DNA of 64,000 bases, from NCBI RefSeq assembly GCF_001049755.1, contig NZ_CVLB01000002.1, forward strand, positions 295,743 through 359,742, read 5' to 3'. This stretch comes from Brachyspira suanatina (lineage in GTDB: Bacteria; Spirochaetota; Brachyspiria; Brachyspirales; Brachyspiraceae). The notes under the pieces were generated by a model, which worked only from the letters and a program-made list of their open reading frames with translations, was not told the DNA's origin and did not search any database. This document shows, piece by piece, positions 15,856 through 22,441 of the stretch (its first letter is position 1; every line of letters begins with the position of its first letter). Position numbers and translations under genes: made by a program.

Positions 15856-17025
15856 TTAAAATTCAGGTAAATACCAAGTTATTCCTGTAGTAGAAGCAAA
15901 ACTAACAGGTACACCTGTAGAATCTGAATCACTATTATTAACATCCATTTCAAAATACCATTCTAAATCTTTTACCGGTGTTATATAAAGCTCTGCATAA
16001 GCACCCCAAGATAAATAATGATTAACTTTAAAATCATAATTAACTTTTTCATCTGGATCTTCATATTGTATTTTTCCTAAATATCTAGCCTTATAACCTA
16101 AAGAAGGCTCAACATAAAGTGATACTATATCACTATTAGCGGTTACTCCCAATACTGCCTGCACTGTTACATCATAAGGATTCTTATCCCATTTAGCATT
16201 GATATTTGCTGGTGCTGAAACAGGACGATCTGGATAATAACCTTCTATTGGTTCAAACATACCATCTAATGATCTTACCATAGTATTAAATCCATGCAAA
16301 GCTGTATTATATGCTATTTTAATAAAAGGATTGATAGTTACATTTCCAACAGCAGTATTCAAAAAATAGAATCTTGTTTCAAAACCAAATGATCTTGCAA
16401 AAAATTCTTCCTCATAATTTTTAATAGTATGTGGAGCATTTTTGTATCCTAATTGTCCATATTTTACATATAATCTTATTTCATTAAAAGCATCTATACC
16501 TGTATAATATCTTATTTGCGTATCAGTGCTTATACCTAAATAATCATATGAATAAGAGATATTACCTTGTTTATCAACTTTTTGAACATTACCATTATAT
16601 ACTAATATTTGTACAGGAATAACTATCCTCAAATTATCATTTAAAGCATTAATCATAAGTACTGGAGTATGAGAACCAAAATTATCACTAATAGGAAGCG
16701 GTGTAGTATAATTATAACCTAAACCTATACTAAAAGCCTCGGAAGTATATCCTATACCGCCGGAAATGGTTGCTCCAAAATAAGTACCAACATTATTATT
16801 CAACAAAATATATCCTAATTGAGTTGGTAAACTTTGAGTTCTAAAACCGAAAGTACCTTTAATTGTACTATTACCTAAAACAAATCCTAATTGATCCATT
16901 CTAGCTCTAAACTGATTGCCGTCTGTAAGAAAATCAATCCAATCGTCCTGATCTCCATACATACCAAATATTGAACAATATGACATACTTAGTAATGCCA
17001 TCATAATTAGAAAAAACTTTTTCAT
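15856..17025 (-). CDS. Variable surface protein (Vsp family), paralogue 1
   Basis: A 389-residue outer-membrane protein resembling the 39-kDa variable surface proteins of Brachyspira. A signal peptide (residues 1-20, MKKFFLIMMALLSMSYCSIF) precedes a body of alternating beta-strand-like, Tyr/Gly-rich blocks ending in GITWYLPEF. The terminal aromatic residue is typical of outer-membrane barrels. The start is the ATG at 17025, eight bases after AGGTG; the in-frame GTG nine bases earlier is part of that ribosome site. Compared with its two neighbours, differences cluster at about 107-114, 142-161, 194-208 and 246-277, as expected of surface loops. Confidence 0.9.
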   Translation of the reverse strand: MKKFFLIMMALLSMSYCSIFGMYGDQDDWIDFLTDGNQFRARMDQLGFVLGNSTIKGTFGFRTQSLPTQLGYILLNNNVGTYFGATISGGIGYTSEAFSIGLGYNYTTPLPISDNFGSHTPVLMINALNDNLRIVIPVQILVYNGNVQKVDKQGNISYSYDYLGISTDTQIRYYTGIDAFNEIRLYVKYGQLGYKNAPHTIKNYEEEFFARSFGFETRFYFLNTAVGNVTINPFIKIAYNTALHGFNTMVRSLDGMFEPIEGYYPDRPVSAPANINAKWDKNPYDVTVQAVLGVTANSDIVSLYVEPSLGYKARYLGKIQYEDPDEKVNYDFKVNHYLSWGAYAELYITPVKDLEWYFEMDVNNSDSDSTGVPVSFASTTGITWYLPEF

Positions 17026-17056
17026 TGTACACACCTAAATTTAAGTTTATATTGTT

Positions 17057-17084
17057 ATTATACTAAAAAATATAAAAATGTAAA
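17057..17084 (-). promoter_or_regulatory. Promoter of vsp 1
   Basis: On the minus strand, TTTACA (17079-17084), 16 bases, then TATAAT (17057-17062). The same pair with the same spacing precedes vsp 2, in an otherwise diverging spacer, which supports function. Confidence 0.75.
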
Positions 17085-17110
17085 ATTACCGAAGAAGTCA
17101 TTTAATAAAA

Positions 17111-17150
17111 TTGGAAGTATTGATTATAAAAAACAAATGCCTCCCATTTT
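17111..17150 (-). terminator. Probable terminator of vsp 2 (weakened copy)
   Basis: The minus-strand hairpin pairs a GGGAGGCATT-type arm (17136-17145) with AATACTTCC (17112-17120). One mismatch and one wobble make it weaker than the matching hairpins after vsp 1 and vsp 3. Confidence 0.55.
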
Positions 17151-17179
17151 TTATTTTGTCATATAAATTTGCTTTAGAA

Positions 17180-18340
17180 TTAAAATTCTGGCAAATACCA
17201 AGTTATTCCTGTAGTAGAAGCAAAACTAATAGGTATACCTGTAGAATCTGAATCACTGTTATTAACATCCATTTCAAAATACCATTCCAAATCTTTTACA
17301 GGTGTTATATAAAGCTCTGCATAAGCACCCCAAGATAAATAATGATTAACTTTAAAATCAAAATTAACTTTTCCATCTTGATCTTCATATGTCAATTTTC
17401 CTAAATATTTAGCCCTATAACCTAAAGAAGGCTCAACATAAAGTGATACTATATCACTATTAGCTGTTACTCCCAATACTGCCTGCACAGTTACATCATA
17501 AGGATTCTTATCCCATTTAGCATTAATATTTCCTGCTGCTGTAGCGGTACGATCTGAACTATAACCTTCTATTTCTTCAATAACACTATCTAATGATCTT
17601 ACCATAGTACTAAATCCATGCAAAGCTGTATTATATGCTACTTTAATAAAAGGATTAATAGTTACATTTCCAACAGCAGTATTCAAAAAATAGAATCTTG
17701 TTTCGAAACCAAATGATCTTGCAAAAAATTCTTCATCATAACTTTTATCCGTATATGAACCGCCTTTATATCCTAATTGTCCATATTTTATATATAATCT
17801 TATTTCATTAAAAGCATCTATACCTGTATAATATCTTATTTGAGTATCAGTACTTATACCTAAAAAATTATATAAATAATTAATATTATCCGTCATATTC
17901 ATATTGCCATAATGTACTAATATTTGTATAGGAATAACTATCCTCAAATTATCATTTAAAGCATTAATCATAAGTACTGGAGTATGAGAACCAAAGTTAT
18001 AACTAATAGGAAATGGGGTAGTATAATTATAACCTAAACCTATACTAAAAGCCTCAGAAGTATATCCTATACCGCCGGAAATAGTTGCTCCAAAATAAGT
18101 ACCAACATTATTATTCAACAAAATATATCCTAATTGAGTTAATGAACTCTGAGTTCTAAAACCGAAAGTACCTTTAATTGTACTATTACCTAAAACAAAT
18201 CCTAATTGATCCATTCTAGCTCTAAACTGATTGCCGTCTGTAAGAAAATCAATCCAATCGTCCTGATCTCCATACATACCAAATATTGAACAATATGACA
18301 TACTTAGTAATGCTGTCATAATTAGAAAAATTTTTTTCAT
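17180..18340 (-). CDS. Variable surface protein (Vsp family), paralogue 2
   Basis: A 386-residue paralogue of the flanking vsp genes. The first ~105 residues and the last ~110 are nearly identical to them. Its loop segments differ (HYGNMNMTDNINYLYN, KGGSYTDKSYDEE and SVIEEIEGYSSDRTATAAGN, for example). The same GTG/ATG start situation applies and the ATG at 18340 was chosen. It has its own promoter and a hairpin after it, so the array is built of single-gene units that could be expressed separately. Which copies are expressed cannot be read from sequence. Confidence 0.9.
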   Translation of the reverse strand: MKKIFLIMTALLSMSYCSIFGMYGDQDDWIDFLTDGNQFRARMDQLGFVLGNSTIKGTFGFRTQSSLTQLGYILLNNNVGTYFGATISGGIGYTSEAFSIGLGYNYTTPFPISYNFGSHTPVLMINALNDNLRIVIPIQILVHYGNMNMTDNINYLYNFLGISTDTQIRYYTGIDAFNEIRLYIKYGQLGYKGGSYTDKSYDEEFFARSFGFETRFYFLNTAVGNVTINPFIKVAYNTALHGFSTMVRSLDSVIEEIEGYSSDRTATAAGNINAKWDKNPYDVTVQAVLGVTANSDIVSLYVEPSLGYRAKYLGKLTYEDQDGKVNFDFKVNHYLSWGAYAELYITPVKDLEWYFEMDVNNSDSDSTGIPISFASTTGITWYLPEF

Positions 18341-18371
18341 TGTATACACCTAAATTTAAGTTTATATTTTT

Positions 18372-18399
18372 ATTATACTAAAAAATATATAAATGTAAA
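18372..18399 (-). promoter_or_regulatory. Promoter of vsp 2
   Basis: On the minus strand, TTTACA (18394-18399), a 16-base spacer and TATAAT (18372-18377), identical in layout to the vsp 1 promoter. Confidence 0.75.
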
Positions 18400-18422
18400 A
18401 TTACTGAAGAAGTCATTTAATA

Positions 18423-18464
18423 AAATTGGAAGTATTGATTATAAAAAATAAATACTTCCAATTT
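18423..18464 (-). terminator. Terminator of vsp 3
   Basis: AAATTGGAAGTATT (18423-18436) pairs perfectly with AATACTTCCAATTT (18451-18464), 30 bases after the vsp 3 stop. The arms differ from the vsp 1 terminator but keep pairing, which indicates selection for the hairpin. Confidence 0.75.
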
Positions 18465-18494
18465 TTATTTTATCATATAAAATTTTCTTTATAA

Positions 18495-19655
18495 TTAAAA
18501 TTCTGGCAAATACCAAGTTATTCCTGTAGTAGAAGCAAAACTAACAGGTATTCCTGTAGAATCTGAATCACTATTATTAACATCCATTTCAAAATACCAT
18601 TCCAAATCTTTTACAGGTGTTATATAAAGCTCTGCATAAGCACCCCAAGATAAATAATGATTAACTTTAAAATCAAAATTAAATTTTCCATCTTGATCTT
18701 CATATGTCAATTTTCCTAAATATTTAGCCCTATAACCTAAAGAAGGCTCAACATAAAGTGATACTATATCACTATTAGCTGTTACTCCCAATACTGCCTG
18801 CACAGTTACATCATAAGGATTCTTATCCCATTTAACATTAATATCTTCATATGATTGAGCAGGACTATCTGGATAATAACCTTCTATTTCTTCATACATA
18901 CCATCCAATGCTCTTACCATGATACTATATCCATGCAAAGCCGTATTATATGCCACTTTAATAAAAGGATTGATAGTTACATTTCCAACAGCAGTATTCA
19001 AAAAATAGAATCTTGTTTCAAAACCAAATGATCTTGCTAAAACTTCTTGCGTATAATTTATAGTATCATGCGGATTAATTTTATATCCTAATTGCCCATA
19101 TTTTACATATAATCTTATTTCATTAAAAGCATCTATACCTGTATAATATCTTATTTGCGTATCAGTACTTATACCTAAATAATTATCTCTATAGTACCCA
19201 AGTTGATCAATACTTTCATTATGTACTAATATTTGCACAGGAATAACTATCCTCAAATTATCATTTAAAGCATTAATCATAAGTACAGGAGTATGAGAAC
19301 CAAAGTTATCGCTAGTAGGAAATAAGGAATGGCTAGTATAATTATAGCCTATGCCTATACTAAAAGCCTCGGAAGTATATCCTATACCGCCGGAAATGGT
19401 TGCTCCAAAATAAGTACCAACATTATTATTCAACAAAATATATCCTAATTGAGTTGATGAACTTTGAGTTCTAAAACCGAAAGTACCTTTAATAGTACTA
19501 TTACCTAAAACAAATCCTAATTGATCCATTCTAGCTCTAAACTGATTGCCGTCTGTAAGAAAATCAATCCAATCGTCCTGATCTCCATACATACCAAATA
19601 TTGAACAATATGACATACTTAGTAATGCCATCATAATTAAAAAAATCTTTTTCAT
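18495..19655 (-). CDS. Variable surface protein (Vsp family), paralogue 3
   Basis: A 386-residue Vsp protein, first of the tandem array in transcription order. The ATG at 19655 was chosen over the GTG nine bases upstream for the reasons given for paralogue 1. Distinct loops include TSHSLFPTSD, HNESIDQLGYYRDN, INPHDTINYTQEV and GMYEEIEGYYPDSPAQSYED. Between them the framework is almost unchanged from the other copies. Its promoter region differs from theirs: TTTACA and TATAAT are present (19687-19712) but only 14 bases apart, so strength may differ. The upstream 270 bases to the AAA gene are plain AT-rich DNA. Confidence 0.9.
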   Translation of the reverse strand: MKKIFLIMMALLSMSYCSIFGMYGDQDDWIDFLTDGNQFRARMDQLGFVLGNSTIKGTFGFRTQSSSTQLGYILLNNNVGTYFGATISGGIGYTSEAFSIGIGYNYTSHSLFPTSDNFGSHTPVLMINALNDNLRIVIPVQILVHNESIDQLGYYRDNYLGISTDTQIRYYTGIDAFNEIRLYVKYGQLGYKINPHDTINYTQEVLARSFGFETRFYFLNTAVGNVTINPFIKVAYNTALHGYSIMVRALDGMYEEIEGYYPDSPAQSYEDINVKWDKNPYDVTVQAVLGVTANSDIVSLYVEPSLGYRAKYLGKLTYEDQDGKFNFDFKVNHYLSWGAYAELYITPVKDLEWYFEMDVNNSDSDSTGIPVSFASTTGITWYLPEF

Positions 19656-19924
19656 TTTGCACACCTAAATTATATTGATATAATATATTATACAAAATTA
19701 AACAAATGTAAATACATATACATTATTTAATATTCATATAATATAAAAATAATAATGTAAAAAAATATATATACTTAAAATAAAACCAAACATAGATATA
19801 AAAAATAGATAAAAATTCATATTAGTAATTAATAAATAAAAATGGTATATATTTTTTTAATAATATTTCGATATTATTATTTTTTATGATATAATTAATT
19901 AACCTTATTCAAGGATAAAACATA

Positions 19925-21343
19925 ATGGAATTAAATATAAAAAATTTCTCAAAAATAAAAGAAGCTAATATAATAATAGACGGTATTACTGTAATAGCTG
20001 GAGAGAATAATACAGGAAAAAGCACTATAGGAAAAATTTTATTTTCTTCTTTTAACAGCACTCAAAATATATTTGATGAAATATACGAATCAAAATTTAC
20101 ACCTATTATAAAAAACTTAAAAGATTTTATGAAAGAATTATCTGAAAATAATGAATCAATAAAAAAATTAATTCCAAACTTTAACAATAATAACAATAAT
20201 AACAATAATAACAATACACCTTTTTTTTGGGGTATCATATCATCTATAGTCTCAGCAGCTGCAGATGTTTTACCTTTATTGTTATTAGAATTTAGATTAT
20301 ATGGTACTTTATCTGGTATAAATAAAAAAAAAGAAAAAAGAAATATTGAAAGTACAAGTGACTTAATTATTAATATTATAGTTGATTTGACAAATGAAAA
20401 TGATAAAAAAAACACCTATGATGTTTTAAAAGATAATCTCAAAGAATACATTGATATAGAAGATGAAAAAAATATTGAAATTATAAAGAAATATGCTTCT
20501 AAAATTGAAGAATATATAAGTATCCCAAATGAAAAAATAGCATATAAAAAGATTGATAAATATTTTAACTCAATTTTTAATAATCAAATAAATAGCAGAA
20601 TAGATAAAAATACTGTATCAGAAATCAATGTAATGGATTTATCATTTAAATTTCAAGATGATATATGTATAGAATCAAAATATAATAATACTTATGATAA
20701 AAATGTTTATTTTATAGATAATCCTTTTGTATTGGATAAAAAACGTGATGAAAAATATATGACTAAGTATGAATATCATTTAATTGAAAAAATATATAAT
20801 AATACCAACAAAATTAACATAGCAGACATAATATTAGCAGAAGAAAAACTTGAAAAAATATATAATAAATTATCAGAAGCTATAAATGGTAAAATCATAA
20901 ACAAAGACGATGATTTTTATTTAGAAGAAGAAAATTTTATAGAACCAATTTCAATACATAGCTTATCAGCAGGATTAAAATCATTTGCTATAATAAAAAT
21001 GTTAATAGAAAGAAATGCATTGAAAGAAGAAGATATTTTAATTTTGGACGAACCTGAAATACATCTTCATCCTAAATGGCAGCTGCTATATGCTGAAATA
21101 ATAGTATTATTGCAAAAGATATTCAATGTTTATATAATAATAACAACACATAGCCCTTATTTCTTAGAGGCCATAGAAATGTACTCAAAAAAACATAATT
21201 TAAATGAAAAGACAAATTATTATCTATCAGATATAGAAAACAATTATTCTATTTTTTATTTAGTTAATAAAAATATAGAAAAAATATATTATAAAATGGT
21301 AAAGCCTATAGATGAGCTTGAAGATTTATCAAATATGTTTTAA
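19925..21343 (+). CDS. AAA/ABC-type ATPase, defence-like, first of a two-gene unit
   Basis: A 472-residue ATPase of the SMC/RecF/OLD-like class. Walker A is GENNTGKST at residues 26-34. The signature SLSAGLKS lies near residue 345, Walker B LILDEPEIHLHP near 373 and the His switch TTHSPYFLEA near 408. No TOPRIM nuclease domain follows; the protein ends about 65 residues after the switch. An asparagine run at ~85-96, encoded by AAC/AAT repeats (20180-20213), sits just before a hydrophobic stretch (WGIISSIVSAAADVLPLLLL). The next gene starts 35 bases downstream. ATPases of this class are partners of nucleases in Septu, PARIS and similar systems. Function here is inferred from that layout only. 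Confidence 0.85.
   Translation: MELNIKNFSKIKEANIIIDGITVIAGENNTGKSTIGKILFSSFNSTQNIFDEIYESKFTPIIKNLKDFMKELSENNESIKKLIPNFNNNNNNNNNNNTPFFWGIISSIVSAAADVLPLLLLEFRLYGTLSGINKKKEKRNIESTSDLIINIIVDLTNENDKKNTYDVLKDNLKEYIDIEDEKNIEIIKKYASKIEEYISIPNEKIAYKKIDKYFNSIFNNQINSRIDKNTVSEINVMDLSFKFQDDICIESKYNNTYDKNVYFIDNPFVLDKKRDEKYMTKYEYHLIEKIYNNTNKINIADIILAEEKLEKIYNKLSEAINGKIINKDDDFYLEEENFIEPISIHSLSAGLKSFAIIKMLIERNALKEEDILILDEPEIHLHPKWQLLYAEIIVLLQKIFNVYIIITTHSPYFLEAIEMYSKKHNLNEKTNYYLSDIENNYSIFYLVNKNIEKIYYKMVKPIDELEDLSNMF
20180..20213 (+). repeat. AAC/AAT trinucleotide microsatellite inside the ATPase gene
   Basis: About eleven AAC/AAT codons in a row encode a poly-asparagine run. The unit is three bases, so slippage would alter run length without shifting the frame. 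Confidence 0.85.
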
Positions 21344-21378
21344 TGAAGTATTATAAAATATAAAAAAGGTATAACTAT

Positions 21379-22260
21379 ATGGATCCAAATATAATTGATA
21401 ATCTACCTGATATATTGAAAAACAATATGGATACATTTAAAAAAACATCTGAAGATTTTTCTAAGAAAGATAATCCTGAATATATGACTGATTGCGAATA
21501 TTCTGTTATTAATTTTGATGAAGTTACTAAAGAATATAAAAGAAATAATAAAATAAATATGGATCCTAAATCTAATGATGCACTTTATATTGATGATGAA
21601 AATTTGTATTTTATAGAATTTAAAAATGGATATTTTAATGTTAATTTTAATGTAAACCATATAAAAGGATCTATTTCTAATGCTTTTATTGATGCTGAAG
21701 ATAACAAAACAAAAGAAAAGATAGTTTTTAATAATTTTAAAGGAAGCATTAAAGGAGGGTTCACAGGATATTGTGAAGGAAGTTTTAATACTAATATGAA
21801 TAGTGAGAACAATTATAACTTTGATGGCTCTATTGAAGGATATTCTTCTAAATGTGAGATAACAGATAAAAATACAAATGAAAAATACAATATTAGAGGA
21901 GACATTAAAGGAAATTTTAGAGGATATATCAATGGTAATACTATACTGGATGATTTAAAAACAAAAATATATGACAGCTTATTCGTTTTATCTAATATTA
22001 AGCATAGTAATGGTGATTATTATATAGAAAATATACTTGATTTTTCTAGAAAAAATATAATATATATAGCTGTATATAACGAAGAAAATAATCCCAAAAC
22101 TAGACAATCACATTTCAAAAAAAGAGCAAATATGCCGGAAATAACAAAAAGATACAATATGGATAAAATACTATCATTAAAAAATTTCATATTTAAAGAA
22201 GTATATTTATATAGTAAAGAACAATTTAGAATGAATTTTATTGATAAAATTAAGATTTAA
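21379..22260 (+). CDS. PD-(D/E)XK nuclease-like protein with Gly-rich repeat insertion
   Basis: A 293-residue protein with no signal peptide. Residues 65-83 read SNDALYIDDENLYFIEFKN. This places D67, E80 and K82 as a candidate D...ExK metal site, with E40 upstream, as in small PD-(D/E)XK nuclease-like families. The expected following helix (LKTKIYDSLFVLSNI, 193-207) and strand (NIIYIAVYNEE, 226-236) are present. They are separated from the core by about 95 residues with four G-[SD]-I-x-G or similar repeats at ~98, 122, 150 and 174, suggesting a beta-helix-like insert. Translation is likely coupled to the ATPase gene. The nuclease assignment is by motif, not by overall similarity. Confidence 0.6.
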   Translation: MDPNIIDNLPDILKNNMDTFKKTSEDFSKKDNPEYMTDCEYSVINFDEVTKEYKRNNKINMDPKSNDALYIDDENLYFIEFKNGYFNVNFNVNHIKGSISNAFIDAEDNKTKEKIVFNNFKGSIKGGFTGYCEGSFNTNMNSENNYNFDGSIEGYSSKCEITDKNTNEKYNIRGDIKGNFRGYINGNTILDDLKTKIYDSLFVLSNIKHSNGDYYIENILDFSRKNIIYIAVYNEENNPKTRQSHFKKRANMPEITKRYNMDKILSLKNFIFKEVYLYSKEQFRMNFIDKIKI

Positions 22261-22289
22261 TAATACTAAAATATTATTTTAATAATAAA

Positions 22290-22330
22290 AAGGCATAGAC
22301 TTAAAGAATAAGCCTATGCCTTATATTTTT
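22290..22330. terminator. Bidirectional terminator between the ATPase/nuclease unit and the NSS operon
   Basis: AAGGCATAGACTTA (22290-22303) pairs with TAAGCCTATGCCTT (22309-22322) with one wobble. There are As on the left and Ts on the right, serving both convergent units. Confidence 0.88.
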
Positions 22331-22345
22331 AATTCAAATTATAAT

Positions 22346-22441
22346 TTACATCTTTCTTAAAGCTATTCCTAAAAAGAAAGCAAATCCTCCCCAAATAGCT
22401 AATAAGCTGAATCCCATAAATATAGCAGAATCTAATCCCAT
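22346..22441 (-). CDS. MetS-like small subunit of NSS transporter, 31 aa
   Basis: A very short gene, found by translating the gap after the transporter. It reads from ATG at 22441 through one hydrophobic helix (IFMGFSLLAIWGGFAFFLGIAL) to the end RKM. AAGGAGGAATTAATT precedes it, a perfect ribosome site. It starts 19 bases after the NSS transporter stop. One-helix proteins in exactly this position are known as MetS, needed with MetP for methionine/alanine import in Corynebacterium. Function here is by analogy of sequence type and position. Confidence 0.8.
   Translation of the reverse strand: MGLDSAIFMGFSLLAIWGGFAFFLGIALRKM

Follow-up and report, generated by a model that had tools for sequence, protein, structure and literature searches.

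A mobile ABC/OLD-like ATPase and PD-(D/E)XK-type nuclease gene pair of Brachyspira, a candidate antiphage system with a fast-evolving insert in its effector

Two adjacent genes of the gut spirochaete Brachyspira suanatina, located in a stretch of 64,000 nucleotides (the window), most probably encode an antiphage system in which an ABC-ATPase would act as sensor and a PD-(D/E)XK nuclease as effector of abortive infection (probability roughly 0.7). As the pair is carried by prophages and occurs as a swappable chromosomal cassette, antiphage defense is the best reading of this two-gene unit, in line with the original prediction of a system analogous to known ATPase-nuclease defenses. The following features were delineated:

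19735..22287, no strand assigned: approximate extent of the cassette (the pair and its upstream region), from junction alignment with L103, L104 and L105
19925..21343, plus strand: ABC/OLD-like ATPase gene, 472 aa (listed ORF; motifs, Pfam and phrog_14430 match)
20177..20329, plus strand: extra ATPase segment, about residues 85-135, present in G000 (the genome of the window), G003 and G008 and missing from G023 and the other relatives compared
21379..22260, plus strand: gene of the PD-(D/E)XK-type effector, 293 aa (listed ORF; conserved motif residues)
21637..21945, plus strand: effector insert, about residues 87-189 (missing from relatives of 186-220 aa; modelled strands; dN/dS)
22290..22322, minus strand: stem-loop terminator of the operon of the SNF transporter and its small subunit, also situated 3' of the pair (terminator scan; kept in empty sites)

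The ATPase harbors a Walker A motif (GENNTGKS, residues 26-33), the signature LSAG (residues 347-350), a Walker B motif (ILDEPE, residues 373-378) and a switch histidine (His409, within THS at 408), and its conserved C-terminal extension reaches residue 472. In Pfam the protein matched AAA_21 (7e-17), and neither a Toprim nor any other nuclease domain was found, confirming the predicted ATPase without a nuclease of its own. In PHROGs, phrog_14430 matched over the full length (E 1.4e-34). The extra segment consists of an asparagine tract, which is encoded by a (AACAATAAT)n repeat, followed by a hydrophobic stretch. That this stretch might touch the membrane is a guess from sequence, because its Kyte-Doolittle peak of 2.0-2.2 (over 19 residues) barely exceeds the 1.8 of an ordinary conserved helix in the same protein. 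The repeat, at positions 20181-20217 of the window, is in-frame, so that a change in copy number would alter the length of the ATPase and not its frame.

The effector gene follows on the same strand after 35 bases, and the coordinates, the gap and the length of the 293-residue product were all as predicted. In the first Brachyspira alignment, D67, E80, K82, K196, Y198 and D199 (the latter three within K196xYD199) were invariant in 13 of 13 sequences, and the N-terminal S24..YMT35-37..INxD47 was likewise invariant in Brachyspira. The D, E and K remained invariant when viral and phage relatives joined the alignment, which upholds the D67...E80-x-K82 site proposed earlier. In PD-(D/E)XK proteins an acid-x-lysine usually ends a hydrophobic strand, and the spacing in the effector fits this pattern. 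No significant match to the window effector was obtained from Pfam or PADLOC, and a search of the effector profile against the sequences of solved structures yielded nothing relevant. The model of the window effector had a mean pLDDT of 61.9, with good values across the insert (82-91 for the greater part) and low ones in the core, and the insert-less relative L063, which served as core model, had a mean pLDDT of 47.6. Foldseek searches with the core model gave no match at E <= 0.001. Thirteen of the 20 top rows were enzymes that we take to be of the PD-(D/E)XK type (EcoO109I, HamA, Avs3/Avs4, EndoMS/NucS, Card1, Cap4 and the La Crosse endonuclease). VIA-align returned, among neighbors presumed to be of the same type, Can2 (Z 6.9), Card1 (6.4), EndoMS (6.0), Avs4 (5.3), EcoO109I (5.1), PspGI (5.0) and Shedu (5.0), although unrelated proteins reach similar Z in the same list. 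Because the list of neighbors is consistent and the motif invariant, while no single match is significant, the effector core is likely PD-(D/E)XK-like; the fold that the original prediction depended on was thus recovered, at low model confidence.

Brachyspira genomes (26) and wider spirochaete genomes were searched for the pair. The effector family was detected at 19 loci in 12 of the 26 Brachyspira genomes, spirochaete matches being confined to that one genus, and at all 19 loci an ATPase gene lay directly upstream. Both genes, ATPase then effector, were also present in four viral contigs (L062, L063, L064 and L066) and in the phage record MT835532 (L073). The two genes thus co-occur beyond close relatives, a point on which the earlier proposal had hinged. 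At the 21 loci measured, the gap between them ranged from -29 to +35 bases, with many overlapping. In L062 the pair is located between a HTH repressor with an IrrE-like gene on one side and a serine recombinase on the other, and in L066 it lies beside terminase genes. The copy in MT835532 (L073, 4706-7876) lies downstream of a MobL-type relaxase gene; therefore what carries it may not be a plain phage but a mobilisable plasmid or phage-plasmid. Another viral contig, L065 (5992-7317), carries the same ATPase type with no recognisable nuclease partner and with a DnaB-like helicase gene downstream. The effector had no match in the plasmid collection and none among phages by tblastn, the phage copy having been reached via the ATPase. 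Most Brachyspira copies stand alone amid housekeeping genes at several further sites and not in multi-system defense islands, a point that speaks against the defense reading. Directly downstream of one copy, a DUF4132 protein of 1144 residues is encoded (L030, 4465-7899). Decayed copies were found as well, with a split ATPase in L029 (8096-9408, G024) and a split effector in L031 (8586-9193, G003).

In G000 and G008 the pair lies between a transporter gene and a vsp gene, and in G003 and G023 it lies at the transporter, with no vsp genes. The same site is empty in related species (G012, G013 and G004), where a vsp gene comes immediately after the transporter. One close relative's genome is named B. 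hampsonii. Among the four carriers, identity was 91-99% for the flanking proteins, 61-79% for the ATPases and 41-73% for the effectors. Between the sister genomes G000 and G008, dS was 0.12 for the transporter and 0.08 for the adjacent vsp gene, compared with 0.48 for the ATPase and 0.91 for the effector. The effector tree grouped G000 with G003 and G008 with G023 (98/98 and 100/99), contrary to the flanking genes, in which G000 is closest to G008 and G003 to G023. Given that the dS of the cassette is far above that of its flanks and that the trees conflict, the cassette has been exchanged in place inside conserved flanks. The pair is under purifying selection (dN/dS 0.37 and 0.32 vs G003). 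As the species with empty sites are closer relatives of the window than are G003 and G023, both loss in some genomes and replacement elsewhere may have shaped the history of the cassette.

The pair had further been described as closed by a terminator and as adjoining the vsp array, and both statements held in part. A stem-loop does lie past the 3' terminus of the pair, but it is on the minus strand. Related genomes without the pair have it too, at the empty sites, where it follows a small ORF that neighbors the transporter gene; it is therefore mainly the terminator of the transporter operon. Since it serves at least this opposite operon, the stem-loop cannot be taken as a sign that the pair is built as a closed unit. 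The vsp genes adjoin the pair in some carriers (the window and G008), while G003 and G023 have the pair and no vsp genes. The neighboring surface-protein gene that was tested matched Serpulina_VSP in Pfam. The vsp array beside the transporter (window 15856-19664; L019, L020 and L021) varies: the window has three genes and G008 four, and G003 and G023 have none there. On the minus strand, immediately after the SNF transporter gene, a small ORF (MGLDSAIFMGFSLLAIWGGFAFFLGIALRKM) that is not among the listed ones was noticed (22346-22441 of the window); it has a good ribosome-binding site, is conserved in the relatives aligned and looks like the small subunit of a NSS-type transporter.

The effector insert follows the ExK strand and precedes the helix bearing K196 and Y198. 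It contains GxIxG at 122, 150, 174 and 182 and GxFxG at 126 and 178, so the predicted insertion with four Gly-Ile-Gly type repeats was found, as were relatives of 186-220 residues without it. Only four loci (G000, G003, G008 and G023) have the insert, all of them adjoining the same transporter gene, and it is missing elsewhere; two subtypes were distinguished, G000/G003 and G008/G023. The suggestion of a beta-helix was abandoned, as the model shows four long beta strands with turns between them (residues 89-108, 114-141, 145-163 and 169-189). The structural neighbors of the modelled insert scored low (Z no higher than 4.4) and were of mixed kinds, and no fold was assigned for this reason. Between G000 and G003, dN/dS of the insert was 0.60, compared with 0.18 and 0.21 in the flanking parts of the core. 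The insert is thus the fastest-evolving part of the effector, at a ratio that does not demonstrate positive selection. Judged by its position, it is expected close to the active-site side of the nuclease. It is conceivable, though quite unlikely, that the extra pieces of both proteins are exchangeable recognition parts, with the beta arm beside the nuclease active site and the hydrophobic ATPase segment forming a membrane-linked sensor whose specificity would be changed by cassette swaps at one chromosomal site.

Contrary to the original view of an undescribed system that matches no named one, the architecture is that of a published kind, 'OLD-ABC ATPase + novel REase' (PMC12137116). To this kind belongs WonAB, a prophage-borne OLD-like ABC ATPase and PD-(D/E)XK nuclease that are both needed for protection; WonAB acts by abortive infection with translation shut-off, sparing phage DNA entry and replication, and protection is lost in ATPase mutants as well as in the nuclease mutant K71A (Adams et al., PMC12137116). 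Its authors call the family of ATPase-nuclease pairs largely uncharacterised. By architecture, the window pair fits WonAB as a two-gene operon of an OLD-like ABC ATPase without Toprim and a small PD-(D/E)XK protein, and shares with it carriage by prophages and an ATPase with a C-terminal extension. The hosts differ, and WonB is smaller (16.1 kDa), with no such insert mentioned in the passages that describe it (PMC12137116). Within PADLOC, PD-T4-4 and HEC-02 are likewise of this kind. PD-T4-4 of E. coli is also an ATPase and PD-(D/E)XK pair; ATPases of the window family scored up to 4e-23 with PD-T4-4_A, and no match to PD-T4-4_B was found among the effectors scanned. In PHROGs, where neither family has an assigned function, the full-length match of the ATPase to phrog_14430 was accompanied by weak matches of the effector family to phrog_25533 (8e-5 to 3e-3), and within the window effector the matching region is confined to the core.

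Septu, PARIS and Gabija/OLD share a related ABC ATPase domain, and the ATPase profile also matched PtuA, GajA and AriA as well as solved PtuA structures. The Septu partner PtuB is an HNH protein. In PARIS the partner AriB is a Toprim protein, and in Gabija a Toprim is fused within GajA and accompanied by an UvrD helicase (PMC10568477). No HNH, Toprim or UvrD helicase was found in the ATPase or the effector with Pfam and PADLOC, the neighbors being vsp genes and the transporter, and these three systems were rejected on that ground.

By analogy with WonAB, the ATPase would probably dimerise around ATP and the small nuclease would probably be held on the C-terminal extension of the ATPase. A phage-derived trigger meeting the ATPase might then release or switch on the nuclease, which would cut nucleic acid and so stop the infected cell before phage maturation. 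The fast-evolving beta insert beside the active site would most likely tune trigger, substrate or docking.

Alternatively, the ATPase might recognise foreign DNA and the nuclease degrade that DNA as in restriction, like other DNA-targeting pairs of ATPase and nuclease, leaving the host alive. The ATPase matches to PtuA, GajA and AriA would suit such a role, as would the resemblance of the core model to the restriction enzymes EcoO109I and PspGI. However, no DNA-recognition domain was evident, and WonAB, the closest studied system by architecture, spares phage DNA and shuts translation (PMC12137116), leaving direct restriction unlikely. An addiction cassette kept for its own persistence, with the effector as toxin and the ATPase as antitoxin, would agree with the occurrence of lone two-gene cassettes at many places in the chromosomes, with tight gene overlap, with the decayed copies and with the Pfam label of AAA_21 ('putative AbiEii toxin, Type IV TA'). 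Yet an antitoxin should neutralise, whereas the WonAB ATPase is required for toxicity (PMC12137116), and prophage carriage and in-place swapping suit immunity at least equally, so we regard this explanation as highly improbable. Archaeal OLD-family ATPases can have cellular roles, as stated for Cran1 (abstract of PMC12796447), and the pair might similarly process DNA or RNA for the cell with no part in defense; patchy presence in 12 of 26 genomes, empty sites, swapped alleles and phage carriage make this extremely improbable. Abortive antiphage defense therefore remains the preferred reading.

In the literature that we found, there is little work on the phages of Brachyspira or on its antiphage systems, and the pair represents a common two-gene immune candidate for this genus. 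It adds a clear variant to the family of ATPase-nuclease pairs, in which the general kind is known and the fast-changing nuclease insert is unusual. Because some natural alleles have the insert and others lack it, its role can be tested directly.

HEC-02 (an Hma-embedded candidate in PADLOC) also combines an ATPase with a protein of about 180 residues that has a D...FIELKN motif. The window ATPase matched HEC-02A at 2.8e-20, and HEC-02B did not match the window effector and matched some relatives weakly (about 1e-3). A true HEC-02 candidate defense pair in the window's own genome (L101, 7421-9279, G000:C1), an ATPase with a D..FIELKN protein, scored 7.8e-79 and 1.7e-21, and identity of the window pair with HEC-02 was rejected by profile. 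Profile comparison of the effector with the HEC-02 partner family placed the active sites in register (E 0.004 over 46 columns, at a low probability of 8.4); therefore a distant link is possible. Literature searches under the names HEC-02 and NsnB returned nothing useful. A decayed second copy of the HEC-02 partner is present at G000:C3:127520-127993. In G003 (L027, 3900-9825) and G019 (L058, 6304-12252), pairs of the HEC-02 type and of the window type sit within a few kb of each other around chromate-transporter-like genes, in a small shared insertion area.
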